Shown: piece after piece, positions 10,768-59,533 of the stretch
How the letters are laid out: every line of letters begins with the position of its first letter
How positions within the stretch are numbered: the stretch's first letter is position 1
Assembly: GCA_024277915.1 (NCBI GenBank)
Contig: JAJRUG010000128.1
Location: 1 to 64,000, forward strand
Direction: 5' to 3'
Source of the DNA: Gammaproteobacteria bacterium
GTDB lineage: Bacteria > Pseudomonadota > Gammaproteobacteria > Steroidobacterales > GCA-2729495
Length of the DNA stretch: 64,000 nucleotides
Notes under the pieces: model-generated
Seen by the model: only the letters and a program-made list of their open reading frames with translations
Database searches by the model: none
Told to the model about the DNA's origin: nothing
Made by a program: the position numbers and the translations under genes

Positions 10768-10850
10768 GAGGATACGTACCGTTAACCCTTGCGGCGAAAT
10801 ACGGACCGCAGGGAGCCATCCGCCTGCAAGGGTTAACGGTACGTATCCTC
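10768..10850. repeat. Long perfect hairpin repeat, copy A
   Basis: A 25-bp perfect inverted repeat (10768-10792 and 10826-10850) encloses a 33-base loop. The loop contains GGACCGCAGGGAGCCATCCG, shared with copies B and C at 54.1 and 57.7 kb. The element is preceded by TGTCAGAGGA and followed by TCCTCGGG, as in the other copies. Its arms differ from theirs at many positions but remain fully complementary to each other. No T-tract follows, so it does not look like an ordinary intrinsic terminator. It lies between the start of a flavin-binding protein gene and a tRNA gene; the bases around it (10626-10906) show no other gene. Confidence 0.85.
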
Positions 10851-44486: not shown

Positions 44487-44491
44487 CTGCC

Positions 44492-44587
44492 CGATTGGCA
44501 CGACGATTCAAGCAGTGAGAGACAGGCAGAAATGTAGAGGCAGGTGGTTCAATCCCGAGGATAGGTGCCGGTTACCCTTTCCTGCGG
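44492..44587 (-). repeat. Broken hairpin repeat, copy D (tail and one arm only)
   Basis: In minus-strand reading, one hairpin arm (44557-44582, nearly the same as the arm of copy B with one base missing) is followed by the conserved CCTCGGGATT..ACCACCTGC block (44540-44560) and, after a variable gap, a 20-base block at 44492-44511 identical to 54231-54250 of copy B. The loop and the opposite arm are missing. At the loop edge (TCCTGCGG) the sequence switches to an hppA-like fragment. It lies between convergent genes. Confidence 0.75.
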
Positions 44588-44626
44588 TATCTTTGTAGGG
44601 GCCGCCTACGGTATCACCGGCGACCG
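44580..44626 (-). pseudogene. 47-base fragment matching the 3' part of hppA
   Basis: 44580-44626 is identical to 49898-49944 except at two positions. That part of hppA encodes the conserved [14 protein letters not shown] motif of H+-pyrophosphatases. Identity includes third codon positions, so it is a recent copy from this gene or a very close one rather than convergence. It directly abuts the truncated hairpin D. A further block, 44639-44667, resembles 49679-49707 in the REP patch beside hppA (25 of 29 bases). Confidence 0.75.
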
Positions 44627-44652
44627 AGAGGATTTGGAGGTGCCGGTGTTCA

Positions 44653-46062
44653 CTATTTAACTATCGGTCCAGACCAGGCTTCCTGCCATGCCTGAAACTC
44701 CAGCGGCTTTAATTGATATCGGGCAAAATTTCCTTCATGCATGCCAAGCAGTTCACTCTCGGCTACTTCTCTGAACTGTTCGCGTGCGGCAGGTTTAACG
44801 TGTTCTTCTGACCAATCAGCGATGCACACGAGTGCTGCCTTCTTGTTCATCCGTTCACGTACGATATGACCGATGAGGTTACGTAGCCCGATACGGTGCT
44901 CTAGTCTGAAGGGGTCCGGTTCTCCGAGTGATTGTCTGACAGCCATATACCGTGAGGCAGAACGCTCATAAGCCAGAATGAAGAGGTCTTTCAGCAGGTC
45001 AACCTTGTTGAGCTCGTATACACCAAGTACCGCTTCCGTGTAATTTTTCGTTGGAACATCGGTGAAAGACAGAGGTGTCAAGTTGGCTTTGATCAGAGGG
45101 ATGTTGGCAGCAAGGCGCGATACACGTTTGTTCACATCGTCAAACGGTTGCAGATACGGTAACTGCACCATGATGAATAATGATTGTTCAAAAGGGTTTT
45201 TAATCGCAGTGGCCGTCACCAGTATCTGGTCGAAATACTCTTCTATAAGTTGAGGCACTTCGAGCGGGTGAAAAGTCGACTTCTGTATACCGATGGCAAT
45301 GTGCCGCAGTCGTCCTGCTGATTCCGGTTCTGCGAGCAGGTTGTTTGCGAGCAGGGCATGGAGGTTGAGAACTGTGTGACGATTGAAACCTGTTTCCCCG
45401 GCCGAACCAACGAGAAATTCTATTGCATCTTTGTGGTTCAGAATCATCTGGGCTTCGAGCCGGGCCTTACCTTTGGCTTCTTCACCGAAAGCGATAAGAC
45501 GCCTGGTATCGAGAAGAGAATAGGTGTTGCCCTCAAGGCGGCTCGAATTCCAGGACAGATCAATGAGCAGGCGGTTCAGTATTTGCTTTGCATGTGTTCC
45601 GGCCGGTTGTTCTGCTGTTGTCAGTGTGCCGATTTCTTCAAGATGTGTGCACTCTTTTTCGGAAAGGTATGCACTGACATTTGGCCGGTAGGCGTCCAGG
45701 AATTCGCGATTGTAGCCAACGGGCTTTCGCTTGAGGATGGGCTTGCGGACATATTTCCGGATTGCAGCAGCACTTTTTGAGATCGGCATATGGGCTTCGA
45801 ACTCTTGTGCATCTTGTGATTCACCATTGACTGCTGGATGTTCCGCTGCTGCCGCAGGAGCTCGGTATTTTACCCAGCGTTTTTCACCTTCCGTGACCAG
45901 GCGTTTTTTGTCCACGAGATATTTCAGGCGATATTGTAGTGTGCGGCGAGGAAGGTCTGTTCCCAATTGACGCGCAATTCCTTGTACGCCGATCCCGTTT
46001 GGGTGGTCGCACACAATCGCCTCAATGGCCTGCAGTTCCTTTGTGGGTATTCGTTTCGCCAA
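44653..46062 (-). CDS. Fic-family protein with N-terminal winged helix and divergent active site
   Basis: 469 residues from a TTG start. The first 70 residues look like a winged helix (GVQGIARQLGTDLPRRTLQYRLKYLVDKKRLV). The Fic core spans about 160-370. An inhibitory-helix motif SSRLEGN (173-179) matches (S/T)xxxE(G/N), placed before the core as in class II Fic proteins. The catalytic loop reads QPFDDVNKRVSR (305-316) where active enzymes have HPFxxGNGRxxR: the His is Gln305 and the first Gly is Val310. Canonical AMP transfer therefore looks impaired; the same QPFxDVNKR form recurs in a known subfamily, so it may be a sensor or use another chemistry. Inverted and direct repeats precede the start. 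Confidence 0.87.
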   Translation of the reverse strand: MAKRIPTKELQAIEAIVCDHPNGIGVQGIARQLGTDLPRRTLQYRLKYLVDKKRLVTEGEKRWVKYRAPAAAAEHPAVNGESQDAQEFEAHMPISKSAAAIRKYVRKPILKRKPVGYNREFLDAYRPNVSAYLSEKECTHLEEIGTLTTAEQPAGTHAKQILNRLLIDLSWNSSRLEGNTYSLLDTRRLIAFGEEAKGKARLEAQMILNHKDAIEFLVGSAGETGFNRHTVLNLHALLANNLLAEPESAGRLRHIAIGIQKSTFHPLEVPQLIEEYFDQILVTATAIKNPFEQSLFIMVQLPYLQPFDDVNKRVSRLAANIPLIKANLTPLSFTDVPTKNYTEAVLGVYELNKVDLLKDLFILAYERSASRYMAVRQSLGEPDPFRLEHRIGLRNLIGHIVRERMNKKAALVCIADWSEEHVKPAAREQFREVAESELLGMHEGNFARYQLKPLEFQAWQEAWSGPIVK

Positions 46063-46088
46063 TGTAGCGCCTGACGTGCAGATTTAGT

Positions 46089-46154
46089 CTATGCGCAATT
46101 AAAACATATATATACGCAACTATCAATTCTATGCGCAATAATACTTGCGCATAG
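46089..46154. promoter_or_regulatory. Operator-like repeats upstream of the Fic gene
   Basis: CTATGCGCAA occurs at 46089-46098 and 46129-46138, with a weaker ATATACGCAA at 46110-46119 and an inverted copy TTGCGCATAG at 46145-46154. The last two exact copies form a perfect 10-bp inverted repeat with a 6-base gap. The direct copies are 19-21 bp apart, i.e. on one face of the helix. The array starts 27 bases upstream of the Fic start; the protein's own winged helix is an obvious candidate ligand. Confidence 0.6.
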
Positions 46155-46273
46155 AGGGGTTCAGGTACACAACAGGTGGAGGGCAAAAGAACCGAAAAAA
46201 TGAGCTGATATCGCGTTGATTCCCGTATGTATTAGTAAAGGGGGATCGAGTTGATTCCCCGGGGGAGTCAACG

Positions 46274-49200
46274 ATGCGTATCAGGTACATAGCAGTAATT
46301 GTTTTCACGATGGTGTTTCTGTCTGCCTGCGGCAGCGGCAACAGCCCTGCATTGCCTGTGGTGCCTGCTGACCCGGGCGATGATGTCACCCCTCCGGTTG
46401 GCATGGTCACCAGCCTCTCGATCACCCCCAGGTCAACCCTGCTCGCAAGACTGGATGATACCCATCAGCTCAATGCCGAACTCCTTGATGAAGACGGCGC
46501 GATGGTCGATAAACCGGTCGCCTGGACCAGCAGCGATCCGAACATTGTCGCGGTGGATGAACAGGGGCTGCTCACCTCCATGGGTACCATCGGCTCAGCT
46601 TCGGTGACGGCGGAGGTGGATGGAGTGACCTCAGGTCCGGTGATCGTGGTGGTGGTATTGCCGGCGCTCAACACACAGTTCGTCAATGATGACCAGGTGG
46701 TCGGCGACATGGAGCTGGTCGACCCCGAGTCACAATATGCCCCCGGTGCACAGTACCGGGTCACGCTGACCGGCATCGATGTGCCTGATATCGGTACGAT
46801 CCTTCTGGCCAGGGAAACGCAGCTGATTGCCGGCGGTGTTGTGGATGTGCAGCAGGATGGCGACGAGATCATCGTCACGCTGGAAGTGCTGCCGATCGAT
46901 GAACTGGTCACCAGCATGAAGATCGACCAGGTATTTGTGCCGACTGAAGATGACATCACGATGTCACAGGAAGCCTCGGAATATTACACGATGGAACGTC
47001 TGGAAGACGGCAGTTACCTGTTTACGCTATTACCGGATACACCCGTCGCAGAGCCTGTGGGCAGCTCGGTACAATCAGCGCGCACTGCTGATTCCATGGT
47101 ACAGGCAATACGCCCCCCCGATTCCACCGTGCAGGCGGTGATCGGTACGGTAGCCAATCCCTTTTATCCCTTTGACTGCAAATTCACCGGGCCAAGCTTC
47201 ACTGGCAATTCCGGCAACGAGGTTTTTACACTGCAGGGCTTGTCACCCACCATTGGTCTGGAAAAGGATATCTCCCTGCCGTTTGTTTATGACAGCGCCT
47301 TGGGTGGTTTGCAGGAGATCAAGCTACAGGCGAGGGTCAAGGGGACTTTTACTTTCAGGAACAAGCTGTCTGTCCAACTGGAAGGCAAGGCAGGTTGCAA
47401 GCTGAAACTGCTGGAGATCCCTGTTCCGTTTCCTGCGCCCTTGGGGCTGGTGCTGGGTGGCCAGATTCCCCTCGGGATCGGCTTTGAGCTCAGCGGTAAG
47501 GTCACGCTGGCCGATATGGGTTTTGGTGTCACGGCCAATTCTGAACTGCGTATGGAGCTTGGTATGGTTTGCCCCAACGGAGAGAACTGTGCGTTTGACG
47601 AAGACGGAGCTGTTCTTACCGCTACCGGTGAGGCCAAGCCGGTGATTGATTTACCCCCGGGGTTGAGCAACCCGGCAGGGGATCTGAAGTTTGAGCCGGC
47701 CGTTGAGGGGTTTGGCTATGCCGATTTTACCTTCGGGCATCCACTATTCAGTTCATGGCGCATGACCCTGGCCAATCTGCAAGCCGGGGTGAAGGTGGGT
47801 GCCAACCTCGCACTGGTGGAAACCCAGATTGATGATGGGAGCTATGCTTCTGACTACAAGCTGAGTACAGAGTTTTCAGCGAAGCCCGGTGAAGATCTGG
47901 CAGACCTGCTGACCCTGCTGGGCACGAGTCAGCTCAATGCACTGACCCTCACCGACAGTACCATCCTGCTCACCTCTCCGGCAGCGGAAGTCCCGCTGAC
48001 TGCGCCCACAACCAAGCTGATTACAGCAGATGTTGCAAATTACACAGTGGGTGATGTGGTGACTTTTACGGTCAAGCTGGATCCGAGCACCGTCAACTTT
48101 ATTCCGTTTGTCTACAATGTGGATGAGGTGATGATCTACCGGGATAATGAATTAGTCGCTGGTGCCAATGATCCGACCCGGGTGGAGCGGAGAACGGCCA
48201 GTGATGGTCAGACCGAGTTCACTATTACCTGGACGGCGACAGAGAGTGGATCGATCGGCGACAATTTCCATGCATTTGTCAGTACGGACTTGTTGCCGCT
48301 GCCTTATTTTGGAGAGCTGGAACTGGGGAAGGTGAGAGGTTCGTCCGCCGATAAGGCCTGGGGTAGTGCCGAGCTGATCGAGACTGACAATGCAGGGAAT
48401 GCATACCGTCCACAAATCGCCATTGATAATAACGGCAATGCCATCGCGGTGTGGCTCCAACACGATGGCACGCGCTGGAACATCAGGGCCAACCGCTTTG
48501 ATGGTACAAGCTGGGGCAGCGCCGAGCTGATTGAAACCAACAACGCAGGAGATGCATTCGATCCACAAATCGCCGTTGACGGTAACGGCAATGCCCTCGC
48601 GGTGTGGGCCCAATCTGATGGCACCCGCAATAACATCTGGGCCAATCGCTTTGATGGCACAAGCTGGGGCAGCGCCGTGCTGATTGAGACTAACAACGCA
48701 GGAAATGCATTCGCTCCACAAATTGCCGCTGATAACAACGGCAATGCCCTCGCGGTGTGGCAGCAATCCGATGGTACCCGCTTTAACATCTGGGCTAAGC
48801 GCTTCGATGGCACAAGTTGGGGCAGCGCCACACTGATTTCGACCAACAATGCAATCGGTGGATTTGTTCCGCGAATCGCTTTTGATAACAACGGCAATGC
48901 CCTCGCGGTGTGGCGGCAATTCGGTGGCACCCCTATTATCAGCAGCATCTGGGCCAACCGCTTTGATGGCACAAGCTGGGGCAGCGCTGAGCTGATTGAG
49001 AACAACAATGCAGGGGATGGATGGGAGCCGCAAATCGCTTTTGATAACAACGGCAATGCCCTCGCGGTGTGGCAGCAATTCGATGGCCCCCAAGGCGACC
49101 CCAGCTCCCGCGATGGCATCTGGGCCAACCGCTTTGATGGCACAAGCTGGGGCAGCGCCGAGCAGATTGACACCAACAATGCAAGAGGTACATTCGGTCA

Positions 49201-49576
49201 GCAAATCGCTTTTGATAACAACGGCAATGCCCTCGCGGTGTGGCAGCAAGGCGATGGCATCTGGGCCAACCGCTTTGATGGCACAAGCTGGGGCATCGCT
49301 GAGCTGATTGAGACCAACAACGCAGTCAATGCATCCCGTCCGCAAATCGCTGTTGATAGCAACGGCAATGCCCTCGCGGTGTGGCACCAATCCGATGGCA
49401 TCGGGGCCAACCGCTTTGATGGCACAAGCTGGGGCAGCGCCGAGCTGATTGCGACCAGCATTGTAAGCGGAGCAGACTCTCCACAAATCGCCTTTGATAA
49501 CAACGGCAATGCCCTCGCGGTGTGGGGGCAATCTGATGGCACCCGCTTGAACATCTGGGCGAACCGCTTTGAATAA
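46274..49576 (+). CDS. Large lipoprotein with Ig-like domain and eight C-terminal tandem repeats
   Basis: 1100 residues. A GGGGGAG site precedes the ATG by 6 bases, and the N-terminus is a lipoprotein signal (MVFLSACGSGN). Residues about 44-128 form a bacterial Ig-like (Big_2) domain (LNAELLDEDGAMVDKPVAWTSSDPNIVAVD). A middle beta-rich region of unknown type follows. Residues 696-1100 consist of eight repeats of mostly 51 residues: WGSAELIETNNAG, then PQIAFDNNGNALAVW, then IWANRFDGTS. Each repeat resembles a blade-like beta unit, so an eight-bladed propeller is plausible. It is likely surface or periplasmic, possibly an adhesin or glycan-binding protein. It is divergent from the Fic gene. Confidence 0.85.
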   Translation: MRIRYIAVIVFTMVFLSACGSGNSPALPVVPADPGDDVTPPVGMVTSLSITPRSTLLARLDDTHQLNAELLDEDGAMVDKPVAWTSSDPNIVAVDEQGLLTSMGTIGSASVTAEVDGVTSGPVIVVVVLPALNTQFVNDDQVVGDMELVDPESQYAPGAQYRVTLTGIDVPDIGTILLARETQLIAGGVVDVQQDGDEIIVTLEVLPIDELVTSMKIDQVFVPTEDDITMSQEASEYYTMERLEDGSYLFTLLPDTPVAEPVGSSVQSARTADSMVQAIRPPDSTVQAVIGTVANPFYPFDCKFTGPSFTGNSGNEVFTLQGLSPTIGLEKDISLPFVYDSALGGLQEIKLQARVKGTFTFRNKLSVQLEGKAGCKLKLLEIPVPFPAPLGLVLGGQIPLGIGFELSGKVTLADMGFGVTANSELRMELGMVCPNGENCAFDEDGAVLTATGEAKPVIDLPPGLSNPAGDLKFEPAVEGFGYADFTFGHPLFSSWRMTLANLQAGVKVGANLALVETQIDDGSYASDYKLSTEFSAKPGEDLADLLTLLGTSQLNALTLTDSTILLTSPAAEVPLTAPTTKLITADVANYTVGDVVTFTVKLDPSTVNFIPFVYNVDEVMIYRDNELVAGANDPTRVERRTASDGQTEFTITWTATESGSIGDNFHAFVSTDLLPLPYFGELELGKVRGSSADKAWGSAELIETDNAGNAYRPQIAIDNNGNAIAVWLQHDGTRWNIRANRFDGTSWGSAELIETNNAGDAFDPQIAVDGNGNALAVWAQSDGTRNNIWANRFDGTSWGSAVLIETNNAGNAFAPQIAADNNGNALAVWQQSDGTRFNIWAKRFDGTSWGSATLISTNNAIGGFVPRIAFDNNGNALAVWRQFGGTPIISSIWANRFDGTSWGSAELIENNNAGDGWEPQIAFDNNGNALAVWQQFDGPQGDPSSRDGIWANRFDGTSWGSAEQIDTNNARGTFGQQIAFDNNGNALAVWQQGDGIWANRFDGTSWGIAELIETNNAVNASRPQIAVDSNGNALAVWHQSDGIGANRFDGTSWGSAELIATSIVSGADSPQIAFDNNGNALAVWGQSDGTRLNIWANRFE
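48359..49573 (+). repeat. Eight in-frame tandem repeats of about 153 bp
   Basis: The repeats are 51, 51, 51, 53, 57, 47, 47 and 48 residues long. The DNA of the repeats is nearly identical in the block coding for NNGNALAVW and in the NRFDGTSWG block, with variation focused on the segment after AVW and after TNNA. Such even homogenisation indicates recent duplication or gene conversion, and copy number probably varies between strains. Confidence 0.85.
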
Positions 49577-49604
49577 ATGAATAAATAGGGTCACACCAAT
49601 GTTT

Positions 49605-49724
49605 GGGGTCAGAGTAAAAACTCTGTTTATGGGGTCAGAGTAAAAACTCCAGGAAATGAACGACTGCTGTCTGATTGTGGTGCCGGTGTTAGCTATTTAT
49701 CTATTGGGTTATTACTCTGACCCT
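49605..49724. repeat. REP-like repeat patch (GGGGTCAGAGTAAAA motifs)
   Basis: GGGGTCAGAGTAAAAACTC occurs twice directly (49605-49624 and 49631-49649) and a matching inverted end, TTACTCTGACCC, at 49711-49722. This GGGTCAGAGT form is the end sequence of REP/RAYT-type elements in many gammaproteobacteria. No transposase gene is present here, so it is a remnant or a non-autonomous unit. The internal stretch 49679-49707 is related to 44639-44667. Confidence 0.7.
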
Positions 49725-49777
49725 AATTATTGATCCGCGACCTCTTCGTGAAAGCCAAAGACCGGGGAGACATCCAT

Positions 49778-49805
49778 AAAAAAAGGGCCCGCAAAGCGGG
49801 CCCTT
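49778..49805 (-). terminator. Intrinsic terminator of hppA
   Basis: Minus-strand hairpin AAGGGCCCGC-TTT-GCGGGCCCTT (10-bp stem, 49783-49805) followed by a run of T (A-run at 49778-49784 on the plus strand). It is 26 bases beyond the hppA stop codon. Confidence 0.9.
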
Positions 49806-49831
49806 GATTTCATGCACTGTTTGTACCGGAA

Positions 49832-51874
49832 CTACAGTAACGGCACCATCAGCAATGCAACAATGTTGATGATCTTGATCAACGGGTTAATCGCAGGTCC
49901 TGCGGTATCTTTGTAGGGGTCGCCTACGGTATCACCGGTGACCGCAGCCTTGTGGGCTTCGGAACCCTTGCCGCCGACATTACCATCTTCGATATATTTC
50001 TTGGCATTATCCCAGGCGCCACCACCAGTGGTCATGGAAATCGCCAGGAAAATTCCGGTAATAATCGTACCAATCAACAGGCCGCCCAATGCACGGATGG
50101 CTTCATCCGGTCCCATCAGAAAACGGATGATCACTACCAGAATAATCGGAACCAGCACCGGCAGCAGCGACGGAATAATCATTTCCTTGATCGCAGATTT
50201 GGTCAGCAGATCAACAGCACGGGAATAGTCAGGCTTGGTGGTGCCTTCCATGATGCCGGGGATTTCGCGGAACTGACGACGAACCTCCTCAACCACTGAT
50301 CCGGCTGCGCGGCCAACGGCTTCCATTGCCATCGAGGCAAACAGATAGGGCACCATGCCGCCGATGAACAGGCCGATAATGACGGCGGGATCGGACAGCG
50401 AAAAGTCCTGCGCTCTGCCTGCAGCCGCGAGGTTATTGGTGTAATCAGCGAATAATACCAGTGCAGCCAGGCCTGCCGAGCCGATGGCGTAGCCTTTGGT
50501 GACAGCCTTGGTAGTGTTGCCGACTGCATCAAGAGGATCAGTAATGCTACGAATCTCGGCGGGCAGTTCAGCCATCTCGGCGATACCACCAGCGTTGTCC
50601 GTGATCGGCCCGAATGCATCAAGAGCTACGATCATACCGGTCATCGACAGCATAGATGTCGCAGCAATAGCAATACCGTAAACACCGGCAAGCTCGTAGG
50701 AGCCATAAATACTGAGACACACGGCGATCACAGGCCAGGCTGTAGATTTCATTGATACGCCGAGACCGGCAATAATGTTGGTTGCATGACCTGTCGATGA
50801 GGCATTGGCCACTTTTTGCACCGGACTGAATTCGGTACCCGTGTAGTACTCGGTAATGAATACCAGGGCAGCTGTCAGTGCCAGTCCGATTACAGCAGCT
50901 CCCCAAAGGCCGATGGTAGATATTCCTTCGATTCCGCCCATGGTCATGTCAGTCACGAACCAAAAAGCAATCGCTGCCAGCACACCCGACACGATGACAC
51001 CTTTATAGAGGGCGCCCATGATTTTGCCACCCTCGGAAGTCTTGACGAAAAATGTGCCAACAATCGATGCGATGATCGATACTGCGCCAAGTACCAGGGG
51101 ATACAGCACGCCGGCATTGTTCTCGATCAACAGACTGCCCAGCAGCATGGTGGCAACAATCGTGACCGCATAGGTCTCAAACAGGTCGGCCGCCATGCCC
51201 GCACAGTCACCCACATTGTCGCCAACGTTATCAGCGATAACCGCGGGGTTGCGGGGATCATCTTCAGGAATCCCGGCTTCAACCTTGCCGACCAGATCAG
51301 CACCAACATCCGCACCCTTGGTGAAAATGCCGCCGCCCAGCCGGGCGAAAATGGAGATCAGGGAGCCGCCGAATGCGAATCCGACCAGGGCATGCAGTGC
51401 CTCATCAGTGCCGGTACCCATGGCGATCAATATCCAGTAGTAGCCTGCTACACCAAGCAGTGCCAGACCTACCACCAGCATGCCGGTGATTGCGCCACCC
51501 TTGAATGCCACCTGCAAGGCCGGGTTGATTCCTGAGAAGGCAGCCTGAGCTGTGCGTACATTGGCACGTACGGGAATATGCATGCCCAGAAAGCCGGTGG
51601 CTCCGGACAACAAGGCACCCAGTGCAAAGCCGATACCGGTTTTAACACCGAGTGTGACGAGCAGCACGACGCACAGGATGACACCGACAATGCTGATGGC
51701 AAAGTACTGGCGCTTAAGGTAGGCCATGGCCCCTTCCTGAATAGCGCCGGCAATCGACTGCATCCGCTCATTACCTGCTGGTTGTTTTAGCACCCAGCGG
51801 GCAGTTAGTGCACCGTAGAGTACGGCTAGTAGTGATGCGCCAATGGCCAGCCAAAGCGCTGTATCGGTTGACAT
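49832..51874 (-). CDS. hppA: Membrane proton-pumping pyrophosphatase HppA (K+-independent type)
   Basis: 680 residues with about 16 hydrophobic segments. Pyrophosphate-binding motifs are complete: [34 protein letters not shown] near 210-240, [12 protein letters not shown], and the C-terminal [23 protein letters not shown]. The K+-dependence switch is Lys ([10 protein letters not shown], Lys456), the form of K+-independent H+-pumps; K+-dependent enzymes have Ala. It couples PPi hydrolysis to proton export. AAGGGGAG precedes the ATG. An extended -10 (TGCTATCAT) in the last codons of the upstream pfp gene may serve as a promoter. A strong terminator follows. Confidence 0.97.
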
Positions 51875-51974
51875 GAATTGCTCCCCTTAAAAAAAGATAA
51901 AATTTTCCCCGATGTGACCGTTCGGGCGGCTCCCTTGCCGCTTTTGTTTCCGGTCTGGGATCTGAAAAAGCGCG

Positions 51975-53240
51975 CTATGATAGCACAAAATTTGTTGTTA
52001 GCTTTTTCCTGACCAACACTCGTTTCAATGTGACGTAATCTGGCAGCCCGTTTTTGTACGGGGGATAGTCTTCCCCTTGTATCAGTGGCTGCAGATACCG
52101 GCGGCCCGCTGCGGTAATGCCGAAGCCATCTTTGGTGATGTAGCGCCGTGGCATCATTTTTTCCCGGTTAGCGACCCGGCCCAGAGCGGTTTCCCCGATG
52201 GCCCATCGGTAGGGTTGATCGGACTTCCGGACGATCACGGGCATGACAGCATTCTTGCCGGCCAAAGCCAGTTCCACGGCAGCCTTACCCACGGCATAGG
52301 CTTGATCGACATCAGTTTTTGAAGCGAGATGGCGAGCCGATCGCTGCAAATAATCAGCGATGGCGTAATGAAACTTCAAACCCAGCTTGTCACGCACCAT
52401 ATTTGCCACCACCGTGGCGACACCCCCCAGCTGCTTATGTCCAAAGGCGTCCACCAGGCCGGTATCGGCCAGGAATTGTCCATTTCGATATCGTGCCCCC
52501 TCGCTGACGACCACCACGCAATAACCATAGTCTTTGACGCAGCGTCGAACCCTGGTGAGAAATGCCTGGCGATTAAACGGAATTTCCGGGAACAGGATGA
52601 TGTGTGGCGCATCTTCGGGCAGATTGCCCGCCAGACCACCGGCCGCAGCAATCCAGCCCGCATGTCGACCCATGACTTCCAGTATGAATACCTTGGTAGA
52701 GGTCCTGGACATCGACGCAACGTCCTTGGCCGCCTCCAGGGTTGATACGGCCACGTATTTAGCCACCGAACCGAATCCCGGACAGGTATCAGTGATGGGC
52801 AAATCATTGTCGACTGTTTTCGGCACCCCGATGCAGGTCAGCGGATAACCGAGGCGCTTGCCGATTTGGGACAGCTTGTGAGCCGTATCCATGGAATCAC
52901 CGCCGCCGTTGTAAAAGAAGTAGCCGATATCATGCGCCTTGCAGACTTCGATGATGCGGGCGTATTCCACATGGTTTTCTTCCAGGCTTTTGAGCTTGTA
53001 GCGGGCCGAGCCGAATGCACCGCCTGGTGTATGACGGAGTGCTGCAATCGAACGCGCAGTTTCCTTGCTGGTATCGATGAGGTTTTCGGTGAGCACGCCA
53101 ACGATGCCATTGTCTCCGGCAAAAACCTTACCGATGCGGCCAGGGTGTCGTCGTGCCGTTTCGATGACGCCACAGGCGCTGGCGTTGATAACAGATGTGA
53201 CACCGCCGGACTGGGCGTAGAGGGCGTTCCGCTTCGACAT
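51975..53240 (-). CDS. pfp: Pyrophosphate-dependent 6-phosphofructokinase
   Basis: 421 residues of the PFK fold. The phosphoryl-donor loop reads NGGGDSMDT (111-119), placing Asp115 where ATP enzymes have Gly, and PKTVDND (140-146) has Lys141 in place of the Gly of ATP-type PGTIDND; Asp144 is the catalytic base. Both changes are hallmarks of PPi use. MGRHAGWIAA is the fructose-6-phosphate site. The reaction is reversible, so it can serve glycolysis or gluconeogenesis. hppA lies 100 bases downstream on the same strand, as in methanotrophs where the two are co-transcribed. GGGGA precedes the ATG. Confidence 0.93.
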   Translation of the reverse strand: MSKRNALYAQSGGVTSVINASACGVIETARRHPGRIGKVFAGDNGIVGVLTENLIDTSKETARSIAALRHTPGGAFGSARYKLKSLEENHVEYARIIEVCKAHDIGYFFYNGGGDSMDTAHKLSQIGKRLGYPLTCIGVPKTVDNDLPITDTCPGFGSVAKYVAVSTLEAAKDVASMSRTSTKVFILEVMGRHAGWIAAAGGLAGNLPEDAPHIILFPEIPFNRQAFLTRVRRCVKDYGYCVVVVSEGARYRNGQFLADTGLVDAFGHKQLGGVATVVANMVRDKLGLKFHYAIADYLQRSARHLASKTDVDQAYAVGKAAVELALAGKNAVMPVIVRKSDQPYRWAIGETALGRVANREKMMPRRYITKDGFGITAAGRRYLQPLIQGEDYPPYKNGLPDYVTLKRVLVRKKLTTNFVLS

Positions 53241-53371
53241 GGTTTATTATTCCCCTTGCAAATTAAGGTCTGGACAGACTGCGTTCATTTAAGTGGATTT
53301 GAGGCGTGGCGAAACATACCATATTGCCTCTGTATAGTTGACCGTTGATGTAACAGGGAAATACTGAATCA

Positions 53372-54028
53372 GTGAGGATTGTATTTTTAGGGGCTCCGGG
53401 ATCGGGCAAGGGAACACAGGCACAGCGTTTGATGGCCGACCACGGCATGGTGCAGGTTTCTACCGGTGATTTGTTACGGACGGCCGTAGCGACGGGCACT
53501 GATCTTGGCTTGCGAGCCAAAGCGGCAATGGATGCTGGTGACCTGGTGTCGGATGAAATCGTGTTGCAAATGATCATTCATCGCCTGCAGCAGGATGACA
53601 CCAGTGGCGGGTTTATTCTGGACGGATTCCCAAGGAATCTGGTCCAGGCGCAGGCGCTGGAAAGCATGCTCGCAGATATTTCGCAGCCGCTGGATACTGT
53701 GATTCTGCTGGATGTCGATCTTGATATTCTGATGAAGCGATTGACGGGGCGGCGTACCTGCTCTCTCACGGGCAAATTGTTAAACGTTTATTTCTCACCA
53801 CAAAGTGAAATTGATGCCTGTGTGGATGCCGGCGGAAAATTGATTCATCGTGCCGATGACAATGAAGAAACCATTGGTAACCGGCTCAAGGTTTACCGGG
53901 AGATGACCGAGCCCCTGATCGAGCACTATCGGAGCGCCGGGCTGTTAAAGACAGTTCAGGGTGCTGGTGATGTTGATACTGTTTATCAAGGTCTGGTCAC
54001 CGCGTTGGACCTGTCAGGAAATGGCTAG
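53372..54028 (+). CDS. adk: Adenylate kinase
   Basis: 218 residues from a GTG start. P-loop FLGAPGSGKGTQAQ, AMP-binding STGDLLRTAV and GFPRNLVQAQAL, and a full-length LID domain (GRRTCSLTGKLLNVYF to RADDNEETIGNRLKVY) are present. The LID has a lone Cys-His pattern rather than four Cys, so it is probably not the zinc type. It equilibrates AMP, ADP and ATP. It is divergent from pfp with 131 bases between the starts and is followed by hairpin copy B. Confidence 0.93.
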   Translation: MRIVFLGAPGSGKGTQAQRLMADHGMVQVSTGDLLRTAVATGTDLGLRAKAAMDAGDLVSDEIVLQMIIHRLQQDDTSGGFILDGFPRNLVQAQALESMLADISQPLDTVILLDVDLDILMKRLTGRRTCSLTGKLLNVYFSPQSEIDACVDAGGKLIHRADDNEETIGNRLKVYREMTEPLIEHYRSAGLLKTVQGAGDVDTVYQGLVTALDLSGNG

Positions 54029-54096
54029 CTGCAATAGTCGAGAGCCATCAGTATTTCAATGCCCCCCTCCGAAAACTCAATATACCGCCGATGTCA

Positions 54097-54250
54097 GAGG
54101 AGTAGGTGCCGGTTACCCTTTCCAGCGGAGTAAAGCGGACCGCAGGGAGCCATCCGCAGGAAAGGGTAACCGGCACCTACTCCTCGGGATTAAACCACCT
54201 GCGTTAACGTTTCCGCCGGTTTTTATTTGTTTGAATCGTCGTGCCAATCG
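54097..54250. repeat. Long perfect hairpin repeat, copy B, with conserved tail
   Basis: A 27-bp perfect inverted repeat (54097-54123 and 54159-54185) encloses a 35-base loop; GCGGA and TCCGC at the loop edges add five more pairs after an A-A mismatch. The flanks are GATGTCAGAGGA and TCCTCGGG. A tail follows with ATTAAACCACCTGC and, after a variable stretch, a 20-base block (54231-54250, starting TTGAATCGTCGTGCC) identical to one in copy D. Sits in the 322-base space between convergent adk and rnd, which holds no gene. Confidence 0.88.
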
Positions 54251-54350
54251 TCCGGCATTAGCTGCTCCGATCCCTTTTTGTCGGGGGAACGGCGGTATGT
54301 TCGGACTCTGATGGCAAGATTGGGCTTCGGCTGTGGGAGCAAAGGTTTTG

Positions 54351-55460
54351 CTATAAAGCACCAAGCAGCTTTTCACCGATCACTTCTTTCCGCCAACCGT
54401 TGAGTACCCGGCCATCTTGTTCGCCACGAAATATGGCGATGAGTTCTTTCTTGGCGGCCAGTACTTCCGGCACAATATTGAGAGCTGCTGCAATTTCCCT
54501 GGTGATTTCCGACATGCGTTTGACGGCTGCTTTTTCTTCGGCTGCCGGTTTGTCATGTTGCCGGATAGTCAACTCACCCTTTTCCCAGGCGCAGGTAGCG
54601 GCGAGTTGCAGCTTGATAATATTTTCGGCATGCCGTTCCGCAAACCGTTTCGCAACGTCAGTGCAGTCGGCCAGTCCACCTACTGTCTGCGGATTATCCA
54701 GGGCGATACTCAACAGGGCCTTGTCGCTTAGTATCCATTGTCGTGGCCGGTCGGCTCTGGCGGCTTTTTGTTCCCGCCACTGTGCAAGTTTCCGCGCGCG
54801 AGCCTGTTCCGCCGGAGGCAGGAAGGGGATGCTCTTTATTCTTTGCCAGGCCAGTTCCGGCGGAGATTCGTGCAGTGCCGGGTCGGCGAGTGCGGCACAG
54901 TCTTCAACAACCCATTCGTAGCGACCGTGTTGCTCCAGTTTTTCTCTCAAATGATTGTACAGATCCGCAAGATGAACCGTGTCGTTTGCTGCATAGCTGA
55001 TCTGTGCTTCGGACAACGGTCGGCGAGACCAGTCAGTTCTGGTTTGTCCCTTGTCGACATGGATGCCGAGGATGTCATGCACCAATCCGGCATAGCCGAT
55101 CTGCGCGGGATGTCCGAGCAGGCCTGCGGCAATTTGTGTATCAAACAATGGTTGTGGCAGACAGTGATGGTTAAGGTGCAGTATTTCCAGATCCTGTCGA
55201 CAGGCATGCATGATGATGACGTTACTTTCCGCCATCAGAATGGGCCACAAATCACCGATATCCAGATCGGCCAGCGTATCAATGCAGAAAACCCTGTCCC
55301 CGGCCGAGATTTGTATCAGGCAGAGGATCGATGCATAGGTATTGGTGCGCATGAATTCCGTGTCCATGCTGAGGATCCCGGGTTCGGGCAGAAACAGCAA
55401 GGCGGCATCCAGTTCGCTTTGCTGTTGAATCATGCTGATGTTGTGAATCGAGGCTGGCAT
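54351..55460 (-). CDS. rnd: Ribonuclease D
   Basis: 369 residues. The DEDDy exonuclease domain shows LSMDTEFMRTNTY (Asp-Glu), MHACRQDLEIL (Asp), and ISYAANDTVHLADLY (Tyr and Asp of motif III). One or two HRDC domains follow (KLAQWREQKAARADRPRQWILSD). It trims the 3' ends of tRNA precursors and other small RNAs. It is divergent from mpl with 31 bases between starts. Confidence 0.94.
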   Translation of the reverse strand: MPASIHNISMIQQQSELDAALLFLPEPGILSMDTEFMRTNTYASILCLIQISAGDRVFCIDTLADLDIGDLWPILMAESNVIIMHACRQDLEILHLNHHCLPQPLFDTQIAAGLLGHPAQIGYAGLVHDILGIHVDKGQTRTDWSRRPLSEAQISYAANDTVHLADLYNHLREKLEQHGRYEWVVEDCAALADPALHESPPELAWQRIKSIPFLPPAEQARARKLAQWREQKAARADRPRQWILSDKALLSIALDNPQTVGGLADCTDVAKRFAERHAENIIKLQLAATCAWEKGELTIRQHDKPAAEEKAAVKRMSEITREIAAALNIVPEVLAAKKELIAIFRGEQDGRVLNGWRKEVIGEKLLGAL

Positions 55461-55491
55461 GTGCGCAGAGTGTAGGGGATCATAGCGCCTG

Positions 55492-56877
55492 ATGCATATT
55501 CATATTTTAGGAATCTGTGGCACCTTCATGGCGGGCATTGCAGCGATTGCGAGATCTGCGGGTCATCGTGTGACTGGTTCCGACGCTGGTGTGTATCCGC
55601 CGATGAGCAATCAACTGGCTGTTTTGGGCATCGAGATCACCCAGGGATATGAGAGCAGCCAGCTGAATCCTGCGCCTGACACCGTGATCGTCGGGAATGT
55701 CATGAGCCGCGGCATGCCGGTGATCGAGACCCTGCTGAACAGTAGCATTCCTTGTTTTTCCGGGCCGGAATGGTTATCCAGAGAAGTTCTGGGTCATCGT
55801 CAGGTACTGGCAGTGTCCGGGACCCATGGAAAAACCACCACCGCCAGCCTGCTGGCGTGGATTCTTGAGTGCGCCGGGCATGATCCGGGGTTTCTGATTG
55901 GTGGCATTTCCCCCGACCTTGGCGTGTCAGCAAGACTGGGAACCGGAAAAGTATTCGTGATTGAGGCAGACGAGTACGACACCGCTTTTTTCGACAAACG
56001 CGCAAAATTTCTGCATTACAAACCACAGACACTGGTCATCAATAATCTGGAGTTTGACCATGCTGATATTTTCAGCGATCTCGATGCGATCCTGTGGCAG
56101 TTTCATCAGTTGCTGCGCATGATGCCCGGAGAGGCGCGAATCATTACCAATGCAAACGACGATAATATCCGGCAGCTTCTGGACATGGGGTGCTGGACAC
56201 CCGTAGAAACATTTTCCAGTCTGGAAAGCTCATCGGCAACCTGGACGGTCAAGGCTGAAGTCCTGCCGAGTGGCTGCGAGCAGCCACGCAGCTTGCTGAA
56301 AATCATGGAGCAGCAGGGACAATCTGCCGAGGTTGCCTGGCAACTCGCCGGGAATCACAATGCCGAAAATGCATTGGCTGCTGTTCTGGCTGCGCGAACC
56401 GCAGGCGTGGATGTTGAAACTTCGTTGCAGGCACTATCGCGATTTTCCGGAGTGAAAAGACGATTGGAGTTGCTCGGTACTTATGGCGGTGTCAGTCTCT
56501 ATGATGATTTCGCCCACCATCCCACGGCAATCAGGCGCACGATTAACGCCATGCAACCCGTGCGAACGAAGGGCAGGTTGTTGATTGTGCTGGAGCCGGC
56601 ATCAAACACCATGAAAGCAGGCGTTCACCGGGAATCTCTCGCCAGTGCCCTGGAGAAGGCAGATCAGGTATGGGTTTACAAGCCCGCCGGACTCGATTGG
56701 AATATTGATGAGGCTCTGAAAGAACTGCATGGTGTGCAAACCTGTGACAAGCCTGCTGACATGGTTGCCGAGATTACTCAGTACAGCCAACCCGGAGACC
56801 ACATTGTGGTGATGAGTAATGGCGGGTTTCAGGGGATCCATACAGATCTGCAGCAAATGCTGAGTTGCAGAACATGA
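55492..56877 (+). CDS. mpl: UDP-N-acetylmuramate:L-Ala-gamma-D-Glu-meso-DAP ligase Mpl
   Basis: 461 residues of the Mur ligase family. It opens [33 protein letters not shown], the Mpl-type Rossmann domain. The ATP site is [32 protein letters not shown] marks the C-terminal domain. The enzyme reloads recovered tripeptide directly onto UDP-MurNAc in peptidoglycan recycling. The next gene's ATG overlaps its TGA (ATGA), so translation is coupled. Confidence 0.95.
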
Positions 56878-57440
56878 ACAAAGAAGCCGTGCCGGAACTG
56901 CCAAAAAGTGCATTCACGCCAAAATTGCGCGTCACGGTAGGTGACATCACGCGGTTGCGCGTCGATGCGATCGTTAATGCCGCCAATTCCAGTTTACGCG
57001 GTGGTGGAGGGGTTGATGGGGCGATTCATCAAACTGCCGGACCGGAGCTTCTTGCCGAGTGCAGGTCATTGGGCGGTTGCCCGACCGGTTCAGCCAAGCT
57101 GACCGGAGGCTACGGCTTGCCGGCGCAGTATGTGATCCATGCAGTAGGTCCTGTGTGGCAGGGCGGGGGATCCGGCGAGCCCGGGTTATTGGCATCCTGC
57201 TACAAAGAAGCACTGAAACTGGCTGCGCAGGAGAACGAGATTCGCACCATCGCGTTTTCCTCTATTAGCTGTGGCGTCTACGGATATCCCGTATCGCAAG
57301 CCGTCAATATTGCAGTACAAACAGTTCGTCAGTTTGAGTACCCTCCAGCCTCTCTGGAACGGGTGTACTTTTGTTGTTTCGATGAATCAATTGCGGCAAT
57401 GTATCGTCATGTGTTGCAAACATCACCAAAGGGAGCTTGA
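56874..57440 (+). CDS. Macrodomain protein (ADP-ribose hydrolase, YmdB-like)
   Basis: 188 residues from the ATG that overlaps the mpl stop. Macrodomain signature: [22 protein letters not shown], then [18 protein letters not shown] (ADP-ribose loop 1), [13 protein letters not shown], and [14 protein letters not shown] (loop 2). This is the MacroD/YmdB arrangement, with the Gly-rich loop and GVYGYP of O-acetyl-ADP-ribose deacetylases and mono-ADP-ribosyl hydrolases. Coupling to mpl is unusual enough to note. A rubredoxin gene follows 9 bases later. Confidence 0.92.
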
Positions 57441-57449
57441 GAGTCACAC

Positions 57450-57614
57450 ATGAAAAGACATATGTGCCTGGTTTGCGGGTTTATATTCGATGAGGCCAAG
57501 GGAGCACCCGAACATGGCATTGCACCCGGGACTTGCTGGGAAGACGTGCCCCTGTCATGGAGATGCCCTGACTGTGGTGCCGGGAAAGAGGATTTCGAGC
57601 CAGCTGATGCTTGA
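57450..57614 (+). CDS. Rubredoxin
   Basis: 54-residue protein too short for most ORF screens. It has both Fe ligand pairs: [14 protein letters not shown] (CxxCG) and [14 protein letters not shown] (CPxCG), spaced as in small rubredoxins, with [12 protein letters not shown] between. The extra Cys in GTCW is not a usual ligand. It carries single electrons to partners such as oxygen-reducing or alkane-oxidising systems; no partner is adjacent. It follows the macrodomain gene by 9 bases, so co-transcription with mpl is likely. The ATG is preceded by GAGAG about 6 bases upstream. Confidence 0.92.
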
Positions 57615-57672
57615 TTCTGCAATCAGCGTCCGTTAGTACGCTCAGGAAAATCCAAAATTTGTGTTGATGTCA

Positions 57673-57818
57673 GAGGACAGGTAGCTGGTACGCCTTTCCA
57701 GCGGAGTAAAGCGGACCGAAGGGAGCCATCCGCAGGAAAGGCGTACCAGCTACCTGTCCTCGGGGTTTACCGCCAATCTTGTCGTTTGCCCGTCTCACCT
57801 CGCTTGAATGGTCGTGCC
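57673..57818. repeat. Long perfect hairpin repeat, copy C, with tail
   Basis: A 27-bp perfect inverted repeat (57673-57699 and 57735-57761) with a 35-base loop that differs from copy B's loop at one position. Arms differ from copy B at nine positions and each change is matched on the other arm. Flanks are again GATGTCAGAGGA and TCCTCGGG, and a tail block TTGAATGGTCGTGCC (57804-57818) corresponds to that of copies B and D with one change. It lies between the convergent rubredoxin and TraB/GumN genes. Confidence 0.88.
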
Positions 57819-57846
57819 CTTCACTCGGCCTCATCTGCCCGATCCC

Positions 57847-58719
57847 CTAACGCTGAATCTGTTTCGACGGGTATCCCGCTTTGTCCAGCATCGCCAGTAC
57901 ACTGTCTTTTCCGACCAGATGCCCGGTACCCACCACGATCAGATAATCATCCGAATCCTTGGTGAGTTGAGAGATAATTTTAGTCCAGTTGCGATTGCGA
58001 TCAACCAGCATGCGTTGATAGAGTTCGGGTTGTTCCGCCATCGTGTCAATGATCAGGGATTCCAATGCCCTGGTATTGCCCGACTTCCACGCAGTGATCA
58101 TATTGGCAACCATTTCCTCTACTTCACCTGCCTCATCAAGAGTCGCCAGAAGAAAATCCCTCTGTGCACTGATTGACATTCCATCCATTACGCCGAGTTG
58201 ATACTCCAGGGTTTCAAGCCCGCGAATCTCTTTCCTGTCCTGCATGGCGCGTGCAGCAAGCCGGGAGTCCACACCGAAGTTCGGGTCAAAGCCGAGTTGC
58301 ATCAGTGTCAACTGAGTGACAACAATGGCTCCATACCAGGGCTCGAACGCATCGAGTATCGCCATGCTGATATTGATTTCAGCGGCCATTTTGCTCGCCC
58401 TGTCATAGGCAGCCGCTCCCAGCATGTCTTTAAGCTGTTTGCCATCCGGATCCGCGGCGAGTTGCATAATAGCCAGCTGTGCCTGCATTGGATCCATGTC
58501 GTCCAGATCAATTTCCATTATCAGGGTGTCAGAGTTACGGTAGGCTTCGTCAATTTTGCTTGCCAGAGGATAGTCATCTGCCCGCAGGTAATGCACCGAG
58601 CCGAGCAACATGATGCGATTTTTCGTGCCCTGTAGTTCCCACAAAGCCAGTGCATCTGACTGAGCAAACCCTGATACGAGAACAAAGACCAGTACAATAA
58701 GCAATTTCAGTCGAGTCAT
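57847..58719 (-). CDS. TraB/GumN family protein
   Basis: 290 residues with a signal peptide (LLIVLVFVLVSGFAQSDA). The family's signature is complete: LWELQGTKNRIMLLGSVHYL (GxxH), DTLIMEIDLDD, RKEIRGLETLEYQLGVMDG and the closing VVGTGHLVGKDSVLAML (GxGH). The TraB/Tiki fold is a metal-dependent protease in animals; bacterial substrates are unknown. It is probably secreted to the periplasm. Stands alone, convergent with rubredoxin across hairpin C. Confidence 0.93.
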   Translation of the reverse strand: MTRLKLLIVLVFVLVSGFAQSDALALWELQGTKNRIMLLGSVHYLRADDYPLASKIDEAYRNSDTLIMEIDLDDMDPMQAQLAIMQLAADPDGKQLKDMLGAAAYDRASKMAAEINISMAILDAFEPWYGAIVVTQLTLMQLGFDPNFGVDSRLAARAMQDRKEIRGLETLEYQLGVMDGMSISAQRDFLLATLDEAGEVEEMVANMITAWKSGNTRALESLIIDTMAEQPELYQRMLVDRNRNWTKIISQLTKDSDDYLIVVGTGHLVGKDSVLAMLDKAGYPSKQIQR

Positions 58720-58774
58720 TTCGAATTACTCCGATTACTATTCCGGAAATTGTTCCGGGTTATTGCTTCAGAAA

Positions 58775-59533
58775 CTATTCAAGCCAGATAACTTCAGTGT
58801 CAATAGAGCCATTGGCGTGAAGATTCAGCCAGCGAAAGCCCGGTGGCCGATTGTCGACCGCGAAGTCGTCGCTATTGGGCAGGAACTGCGAGCAGGTGGA
58901 TGGTGTGCTCATCAGTCGAATGCCCTTGCGACTGCGATCAGACGCCTGGTGTACATGTCCCCATAGCAACCCCCGGACCTGGGGATTGCTGTCGACGATT
59001 GTCATGAGCTGATCTTTGTTTCGCAGGCCAACGCCATCCAGCCACCGGCTGCCCATGTGGACAGGCTGGTGATGGAGGCTGATCAGTACATGCTGATTGG
59101 CACAATCTGCCAGGGAATGGCGCAGGAACGCAAGCTCACTTTCCGGAAGCCGGCCACCGTCGTCCCCGGCAATGAAGCTGTTGAGCAGGATCAGGCGCCA
59201 GGATCCCAGTGAGGCAACACCACATAACTGGAAAGGGACTGTCTGCAATACATTTTCCATTATCTCCGGTGCATCGTGGTTGCCCGGCAAACAATAGACA
59301 GGTACATCCAGTCGTTCCAGGCTTTTACGGAACAACAGGTACCCGGCAAGCGTTTCATCCTGCACCAGATCGCCGGTTGCCAGCACGGCATCCGGCGGGT
59401 TCGGGTCGGCCAACACCCGGTCAATGACCGCGCAAAATGTCTCATAGGTCACTACACCGCGCATTCTGCTCTCGATGTGAGCATGCAGGTGTGGGTCAGT
59501 GATATGCAGCAGTCTTACAGACTCAGCCGGCAT
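58775..59533 (-). CDS. cpdA: 3',5'-cyclic-AMP phosphodiesterase CpdA-type
   Basis: 252 residues of the calcineurin-like metallophosphoesterase fold. Metal ligands are seen in order: LLHITDPHLH (Asp, His), ATGDLVQDE (Asp), CLPGNHDAPE (Asn, His), LISLHHQPV (His) and LLWGHVHQA (GHxH). The SVPxYCxPGNHD and GHVH spacing fits CpdA, the cAMP phosphodiesterase of class III. It ends the run beside ahcY, which is on the same strand 8 bases upstream, so it may be expressed with it. Substrate not proven from sequence. Confidence 0.87.
   Translation of the reverse strand: MPAESVRLLHITDPHLHAHIESRMRGVVTYETFCAVIDRVLADPNPPDAVLATGDLVQDETLAGYLLFRKSLERLDVPVYCLPGNHDAPEIMENVLQTVPFQLCGVASLGSWRLILLNSFIAGDDGGRLPESELAFLRHSLADCANQHVLISLHHQPVHMGSRWLDGVGLRNKDQLMTIVDSNPQVRGLLWGHVHQASDRSRKGIRLMSTPSTCSQFLPNSDDFAVDNRPPGFRWLNLHANGSIDTEVIWLE

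Follow-up and report, generated by a model that had tools for sequence, protein, structure and literature searches.

A dispersed palindromic element with a conserved loop and covarying stems in a group of marine gammaproteobacteria

The window, by which we mean the whole 64,000-nucleotide stretch of DNA analyzed here, contains four copies (A to D) of a hairpin element; for B, C and D, the open reading frames (ORFs) on either side are convergent. Copy B is on the plus strand, within a gap of about 320 bp between adk and rnd. Its hairpin 1 (54094–54185) has arms at 54097–54123 and 54159–54185 around a loop region at 54124–54158; the inverted repeat 54097–54129/54153–54185 is 97% complementary, and the single-strand DNA fold of 54030–54350 has a z-score of −6.8 relative to shuffled sequences. 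A conserved 22-nt loop core, AAAGCGGACCGCAGGGAGCCAT, occupies 54132–54153. The hairpin is followed by a linker that begins with a first tail block, ATTAAACCACCTGC (54189–54202), and ends with a second, TTGAATCGTCGTGCCAATCG (54231–54250), and then by a segment (CGGCATTAGCTGCTCCGATCCCTTTTTG, 54253–54280) that alignment with L009, L010, L017 and other genomic copies identifies as the left arm of a second hairpin. Copy alignment also places a left terminal segment (ATAGTCGAGAGCCATCAG...) at 54034–54068, its outer limit being approximate, which forms an imperfect inverted repeat with a right terminal segment (CTGATGGCAAGATTGGGCTTCGGCTGTG) at 54308–54335. Copy B thus keeps both ends, while from hairpin 2 the loop and the right arm have been deleted.

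The other three copies are less complete. Hairpin 1 of copy C (57670–57761, plus strand; core AAAGCGGACCGAAGGGAGCCAT at 57708–57729) has a stem whose sequence differs from that of the other copies, yet is self-complementary. Downstream (57804–57846) lie a degraded tail block, TTGAATGGTCGTGCC (57804–57818), whose identity stops after 15 bases, and the start of the hairpin-2 left arm (57825–57846); the copy is cut inside hairpin 2. Copy D (44479–44587, minus strand) is partial, with the hairpin-1 right arm at 44557–44582, the blocks ATTGAACCACCTGC (44540–44553) and an identical TTGAATCGTCGTGCCAATCG (44492–44511), and a distal remnant of hairpin 2, the middle of which is missing. Copy A consists of a hairpin 1 (10768–10850, plus strand) with perfect 25-bp arms and a core variant at 10798, and of a left terminal segment upstream; it has neither the tail block nor hairpin 2. 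On re-checking the sequence, we found the coordinates of copies B, C and D and the tail-block bases given in the initial annotation to be exact throughout.

Several other repeats lie in this part of the window. Copy D and a fragment that matches the 3' portion of a sodium/proton pyrophosphatase gene (44580–44626 and 49898–49944; the gene is at 49832–51874, minus strand) meet at a TCCTGCGG common to both, in what looks like an illegitimate join at the hairpin. The sequence at 44639–44667 also resembles 49679–49707, downstream of the same gene. Another repeat, TGGGGTCAGAGTAAAAACTC, is present within 49597–49732 as two direct copies and an inverted partner, and eight tandem coding repeats of ~150 bp (48328–49572) lie within a large predicted lipoprotein-like ORF (46274–49576).

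When positions 54080–54300 were used as a query against the window's own genome (G000; 3.1 Mb in 178 contigs, 92.5% complete), 71 matches were returned, many of them pieces of the same copies. In L009, L010 and L017, which are among the fuller copies, the tail leads on to the left arm of hairpin 2; the loop of this second hairpin is the hairpin-1 loop in reverse complement. The tail is therefore not a border of the element, but the linker and left arm of a second, inverted hairpin. Aligned copies have the order left end, hairpin 1, linker, hairpin 2, right end, over roughly 0.3–0.4 kb, and the two ends resemble imperfect inverted repeats of ~30–40 bp. The initial annotation was thus right that the mobile unit extends beyond the hairpin, and its figure of about 150 bp or more was an underestimate. 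The alignment of copies that it had proposed for locating the borders moved them out to hairpin 2 and the inverted ends, while no target-site duplication was seen at the few copy borders inspected by eye. Adjoining hairpin cores are almost always inverted with respect to each other (97 inverted pairs versus 2), so inverted pairing of a short repeat as the dispersed unit, as in REPINs, is found in 97/99 core pairs. Hairpin 2 is complete in about a dozen genomic copies and broken in B, C and D; in other copies the cut is within hairpin 1. Such truncated copies can be explained simply by deletions inside long hairpins.

Next, we surveyed the second tail block in the hairpin-1 copies of the window's genome that had at least 130 nt downstream (n = 25). 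The 20-base block was found within 6 edits in 19 of the 25 and in none of 125 shuffled segments; the genuine number is 18, since the match assigned to L045 (window copy A) is false and lies inside a tRNA gene. This is far beyond chance. Copies without the tail, which had been named as what would speak against a larger unit, do exist (besides copy A, the block is missing from L016, L022, L027, L032 and L034), but they look truncated, and we therefore regard the block as part of the ancestral unit that has often been lost. As had been noted, the stretch between the two blocks is unconserved: ~25–30 nt vary even among aligned copies of the window's genome. Conservation of the tail blocks themselves is confined to the subfamily in this genome, and the terminal segments are likewise common to G000 copies and not shared across genomes.

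Across the families of the order, the conserved part is instead the hairpin loop. The most conserved part of the element is a 22-nt loop, AAAGCGGACCGNAGGGAGCCAT, and not the stem or the ends; the earlier suggestion that only ends and stem matter was wrong, as the stem sequence is among the least conserved parts and only its pairing is kept. Among 254 distinct instances of the core, positions 7, 9 and 15 read GCG in 212, CGC in 41 and CCG in one, and position 12 can be C, A, T or G. The co-switching of the three positions and the variable fourth fit a possible apical GNA mini-hairpin, but the isolated core, folded as DNA, favors a different pairing. The degree of loop conservation is overstated because the instances were found by searching for the core, while the contrast between the loop and the stems flanking the same cores is not inflated in this way.

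The stems behave very differently. In 154 copies (96 without near-duplicates) that had been pre-filtered for at least 13 of 16 pairs, stem pairs 1–3 and 6–19 are Watson–Crick in 93–100% of cases, and positions 4–5 from the loop in 65–82%; the column-based expectation for the same set is mostly 0.3–0.8. Most stem positions in this filtered set use all four pair types, and pairing declines beyond ~30 bp. When the filter was omitted, at least 10 of 20 pairs were present in 221 of the 254 instances, in which 88% of the cells are Watson–Crick. Altogether, these data show covariation: the stem sequence is free to change and its pairing is kept. G-T accounts for 83 of the 520 non-Watson–Crick cells in the 221 unfiltered copies, about the share expected for random mismatches. 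It is more frequent than A-C (83 versus 29).

Compensatory changes in a stem are usually taken as proof of selection on RNA structure. Here two accounts could keep the stems paired, selection on structure or copying of one arm from the other, and both may act together; stem covariation alone does not separate them. Orthologous copies bear on this question. Six assemblies have elements between rpsJ and rplC, and four have them near hemE, where L185 is a different copy from L133, L139 and L194. In the second rpsJ-rplC hairpin, compared across six sequences that are few and related, 10 of 22 pairs show changes in both arms, and there is no pair with a change in one arm alone; 99.2% are paired, and on most measures none of 500 shuffles scored as high.

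Some copies appear to have drawn their arms from host sequence. Six copies in G085 have outer inverted repeats of 19–45 bp whose distal parts differ from copy to copy; read by eye, L224 and L225 from the same genome have none. The outer repeat of L223 is a perfect 45 bp, and its right arm holds the last codons of murA, the murA model running to its end within that arm. In relatives the murA end is native and the upstream gene lies close to murA without the left arm; the best reading is therefore that the left arm of L223 was copied, inverted, from the right flank. This one worked case supports the view that, in some copies, host DNA flanking the element is present as an inverted duplicate. In L221, L185 and L271 a stop codon also lies in or at an arm, as read by eye.

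A second hairpin family was found in the sister genome G001. It has a constant loop of ~50 nt, CCGCCGTGAACCC[AG]TCCATGGGGGCTTGCGTCCCGCGTCCATGCGGGACAC, with 32 matches in G001 and none in G000; L197/L321, L317/L319 and L329/L334 are probably the same copy or overlapping contigs. The 28 hairpins that were measured have stems of 13–126 bp with 0–2 mismatches, several of them cut by contig ends. These near-perfect stems are mostly locus-specific: beyond ~25–30 bp, the arms of different copies are about as alike as shuffled sequence, apart from a mild excess of C. The arms end a median of 17 nt from neighboring gene ends versus 92 nt from gene starts (14 of 31 versus 0 of 14 within 15 nt), with gene ends taken from a simple custom script. 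A tentative reading, which we hold to be possible although the odds are against it, is that a palindrome starts from the constant loop, takes its arms from adjacent host DNA and lengthens them by template switching up to a stop codon, where selection halts their growth. If that were true, the element would be a self-extending palindrome defined by its loop, and the long-range covariation would come from mutation and not from selection.

We then asked where the elements occur. In four relatives that have adk and rnd at one locus (L272, L273, L274 and L276) the two stop codons are 28–60 bp apart and, judged from this spacing, copy B is shown to be an insertion relative to them. G001, of the same genus, has a different long hairpin in the same gap (L271, 220–462). 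Of 196 genomes of the order, 15 have the loop pattern, a patchy distribution, and a slightly wider form of the pattern was present in none of ~226 gammaproteobacteria sampled outside the order; among the matches listed in a public scan, carriers are mostly Woeseiaceae or unclassified gammaproteobacterial MAGs. Among the genomes sampled, then, the dispersed element was found only in one group of marine gammaproteobacteria. Some carriers frequently have a second loop form, AAAGCGCAGCGNAGCGAGCCAT (e.g., 49 matches in G070). L068, L072 and L054 (G001) are tandem elements ~340 bp apart, and L195 has convergent cores 4.4 kb apart.

Elements are mostly intergenic and near gene ends. In the first family, 29 of 66 elements lie in convergent gaps, compared with 29 of 221 background gaps, and 5 of 66 in divergent gaps, compared with 58 of 221; background gaps were at least 30 bp and came from a simple gene caller, and the p-values for position are too small because orthologous loci were counted more than once. 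Such a distribution, together with retention at the orthologous rpsJ-rplC and hemE sites across species, would suit transcribed hairpins that stabilize or terminate mRNAs and whose stems are kept by selection for RNA pairing. We think this explanation unlikely. The position bias would equally result from selection that spares promoters, stems that reach 126 bp and are unrelated in sequence exceed what an RNA hairpin needs, no one-sided changes were seen at rpsJ-rplC, and G-U is not in excess over other mismatches. An Rfam scan of window positions 44000–59000 gave no family at gathering score, all matches falling far below, and no T run was noticed by eye 3' of the hairpins. The asymmetry of G-T over A-C is not predicted by template switching and could hint at a constraint at the RNA level. 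We nevertheless favor copying over selection because of the absence of one-sided changes, the lack of a G-T excess over other mismatches, the locus-specific stems and the inverted murA flank; the arms probably stay paired because DNA replication copies one from the other.

No enzyme that mobilizes the elements was found. Strict REPINs, in which a RAYT (TnpA-REP) transposase moves inverted pairs of REPs in hairpin form, would account for the 97 to 2 inverted pairing, the tens of copies per genome, the patchy presence and the mostly intergenic position near gene ends; REPs, too, lie mainly between convergent and unidirectional genes (PMC3733652). However, the window's genome has no Y1_Tnp match, although such a gene could be missing from an assembly that is 92.5% complete and in 178 contigs. 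Element-bearing genomes have few Y1 transposase genes, and core-like matches near them, in relatives and carriers, are only in coding or unrelated sequence; the flanks examined at 14 Y1 loci from carriers, whose assemblies are incomplete, held no genuine core that would mark a RAYT flanked by the same repeat. Stems of about 27–33 bp and more and a conserved loop also set the element apart from REPs, with stems of 5–13 bp (PMC3733652). We consider the strict form improbable.

Three other candidates were rejected. L215 (G127, 1036–2650), in which two element hairpins 1.57 kb (1573 bp) apart enclose an ORF of 375 aa and are flanked by similar direct repeats of ~25 bp, was considered as an autonomous copy; the ORF has no Pfam match at E up to 1, and it may be cargo or a later insertion. 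Recurring neighbor genes form clusters that are orthologous housekeeping loci, with no mobile gene in common. A viral origin would have rested on a single IMG/VR match in coding sequence with no visible hairpin, which we take as chance. SbcD is part of a nuclease that attacks long palindromes in Escherichia coli. It scored above the curated cut-off in 1 of 28 genomes of the order searched and does not explain the patchiness, because it is weak or absent in carriers and non-carriers alike.

The imperfect inverted ends of the window-genome subfamily would be expected of MITEs, sequences left behind by a DDE transposon with terminal inverted repeats, in which the hairpins would be incidental. This is very unlikely: it is the loop that is shared between genomes and not the ends, the L215 ORF has no Pfam match and no autonomous copy was found, and target-site duplications were not seen by eye. 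The very long perfect palindromes could in principle be artefacts of assembly or amplification, given that all sources are draft or metagenome-assembled and that several copies lie at contig ends. We hardly credit this, since assemblies produced independently have the same loops and architecture, most loci are continuous with single-copy genes on either side, and different species agree at orthologous sites.

The reading that we prefer, and to which we give about an even chance, is a dispersed, REPIN-like, non-autonomous palindromic element with a loop that is recognized and with arms that replication template switching extends and keeps identical. A full copy is an inverted pair of long hairpins with a short linker and, in the window's genome, imperfect inverted ends, and the ~22-nt loop, in opposite orientation in the two hairpins, is the conserved signal. 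We infer that the loop is recognized by an enzyme, probably as single-stranded DNA, and that replication passes through template switching: on stalling at a hairpin, it would switch template within the molecule, as in the quasipalindrome mutation pathway known in E. coli, which would keep the arms complementary and sometimes extend them into adjoining host sequence. The stems would need only to pair, and the copies that persist would be mainly those lying directly behind the end of a gene. Template switching at quasipalindromes is well established and brings the arms of an inverted repeat closer to perfect complementarity (PMC7202029). With its dozens of copies in each genome and its orthologues across species, the element offers a natural collection in which covariation may come from DNA-level arm copying and in which selection and arm copying can be distinguished; it would also be informative on the persistence of long palindromes in genomes.

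We found no description in the literature of the core sequence, of Woeseia repeats or of long palindromes with a conserved loop. The closest parallels are partial. REPINs (PMC3116915) are also short, non-autonomous inverted pairs, present in many intergenic copies per genome and with compensatory changes in their hairpin; their outer REPs are conserved and the spacer varies, whereas here the loops are conserved, the stems vary and the ends are not shared between genomes, so that the REPIN pattern of conserved ends around a variable, hairpin-forming spacer is absent. Each hairpin is also much longer here, and the link to a RAYT was not found. The GTAG and CGTC families of REP/BIME sequences (PMC3733652) resemble the element in being palindromic, intergenic, biased to gene ends and often arranged as inverted dimers, but their stems are 5–13 bp, a range that the elements here exceed, their loops are 2–20 nt, G-T pairs are common in them and they bear a GTAG or CGTC tag. 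Long palindromes of Blochmannia (62–136 bp; PMC3017870) are nearly all at least partly intergenic and similarly unexplained, and the part of that account available to us reports no common loop or repeat family among them. Finally, quasipalindrome template-switch mutation (PMC7202029) likewise copies one arm of an inverted repeat from the other, although it is known as the mechanism of mutational hotspots rather than as the upkeep of a dispersed repeat family.
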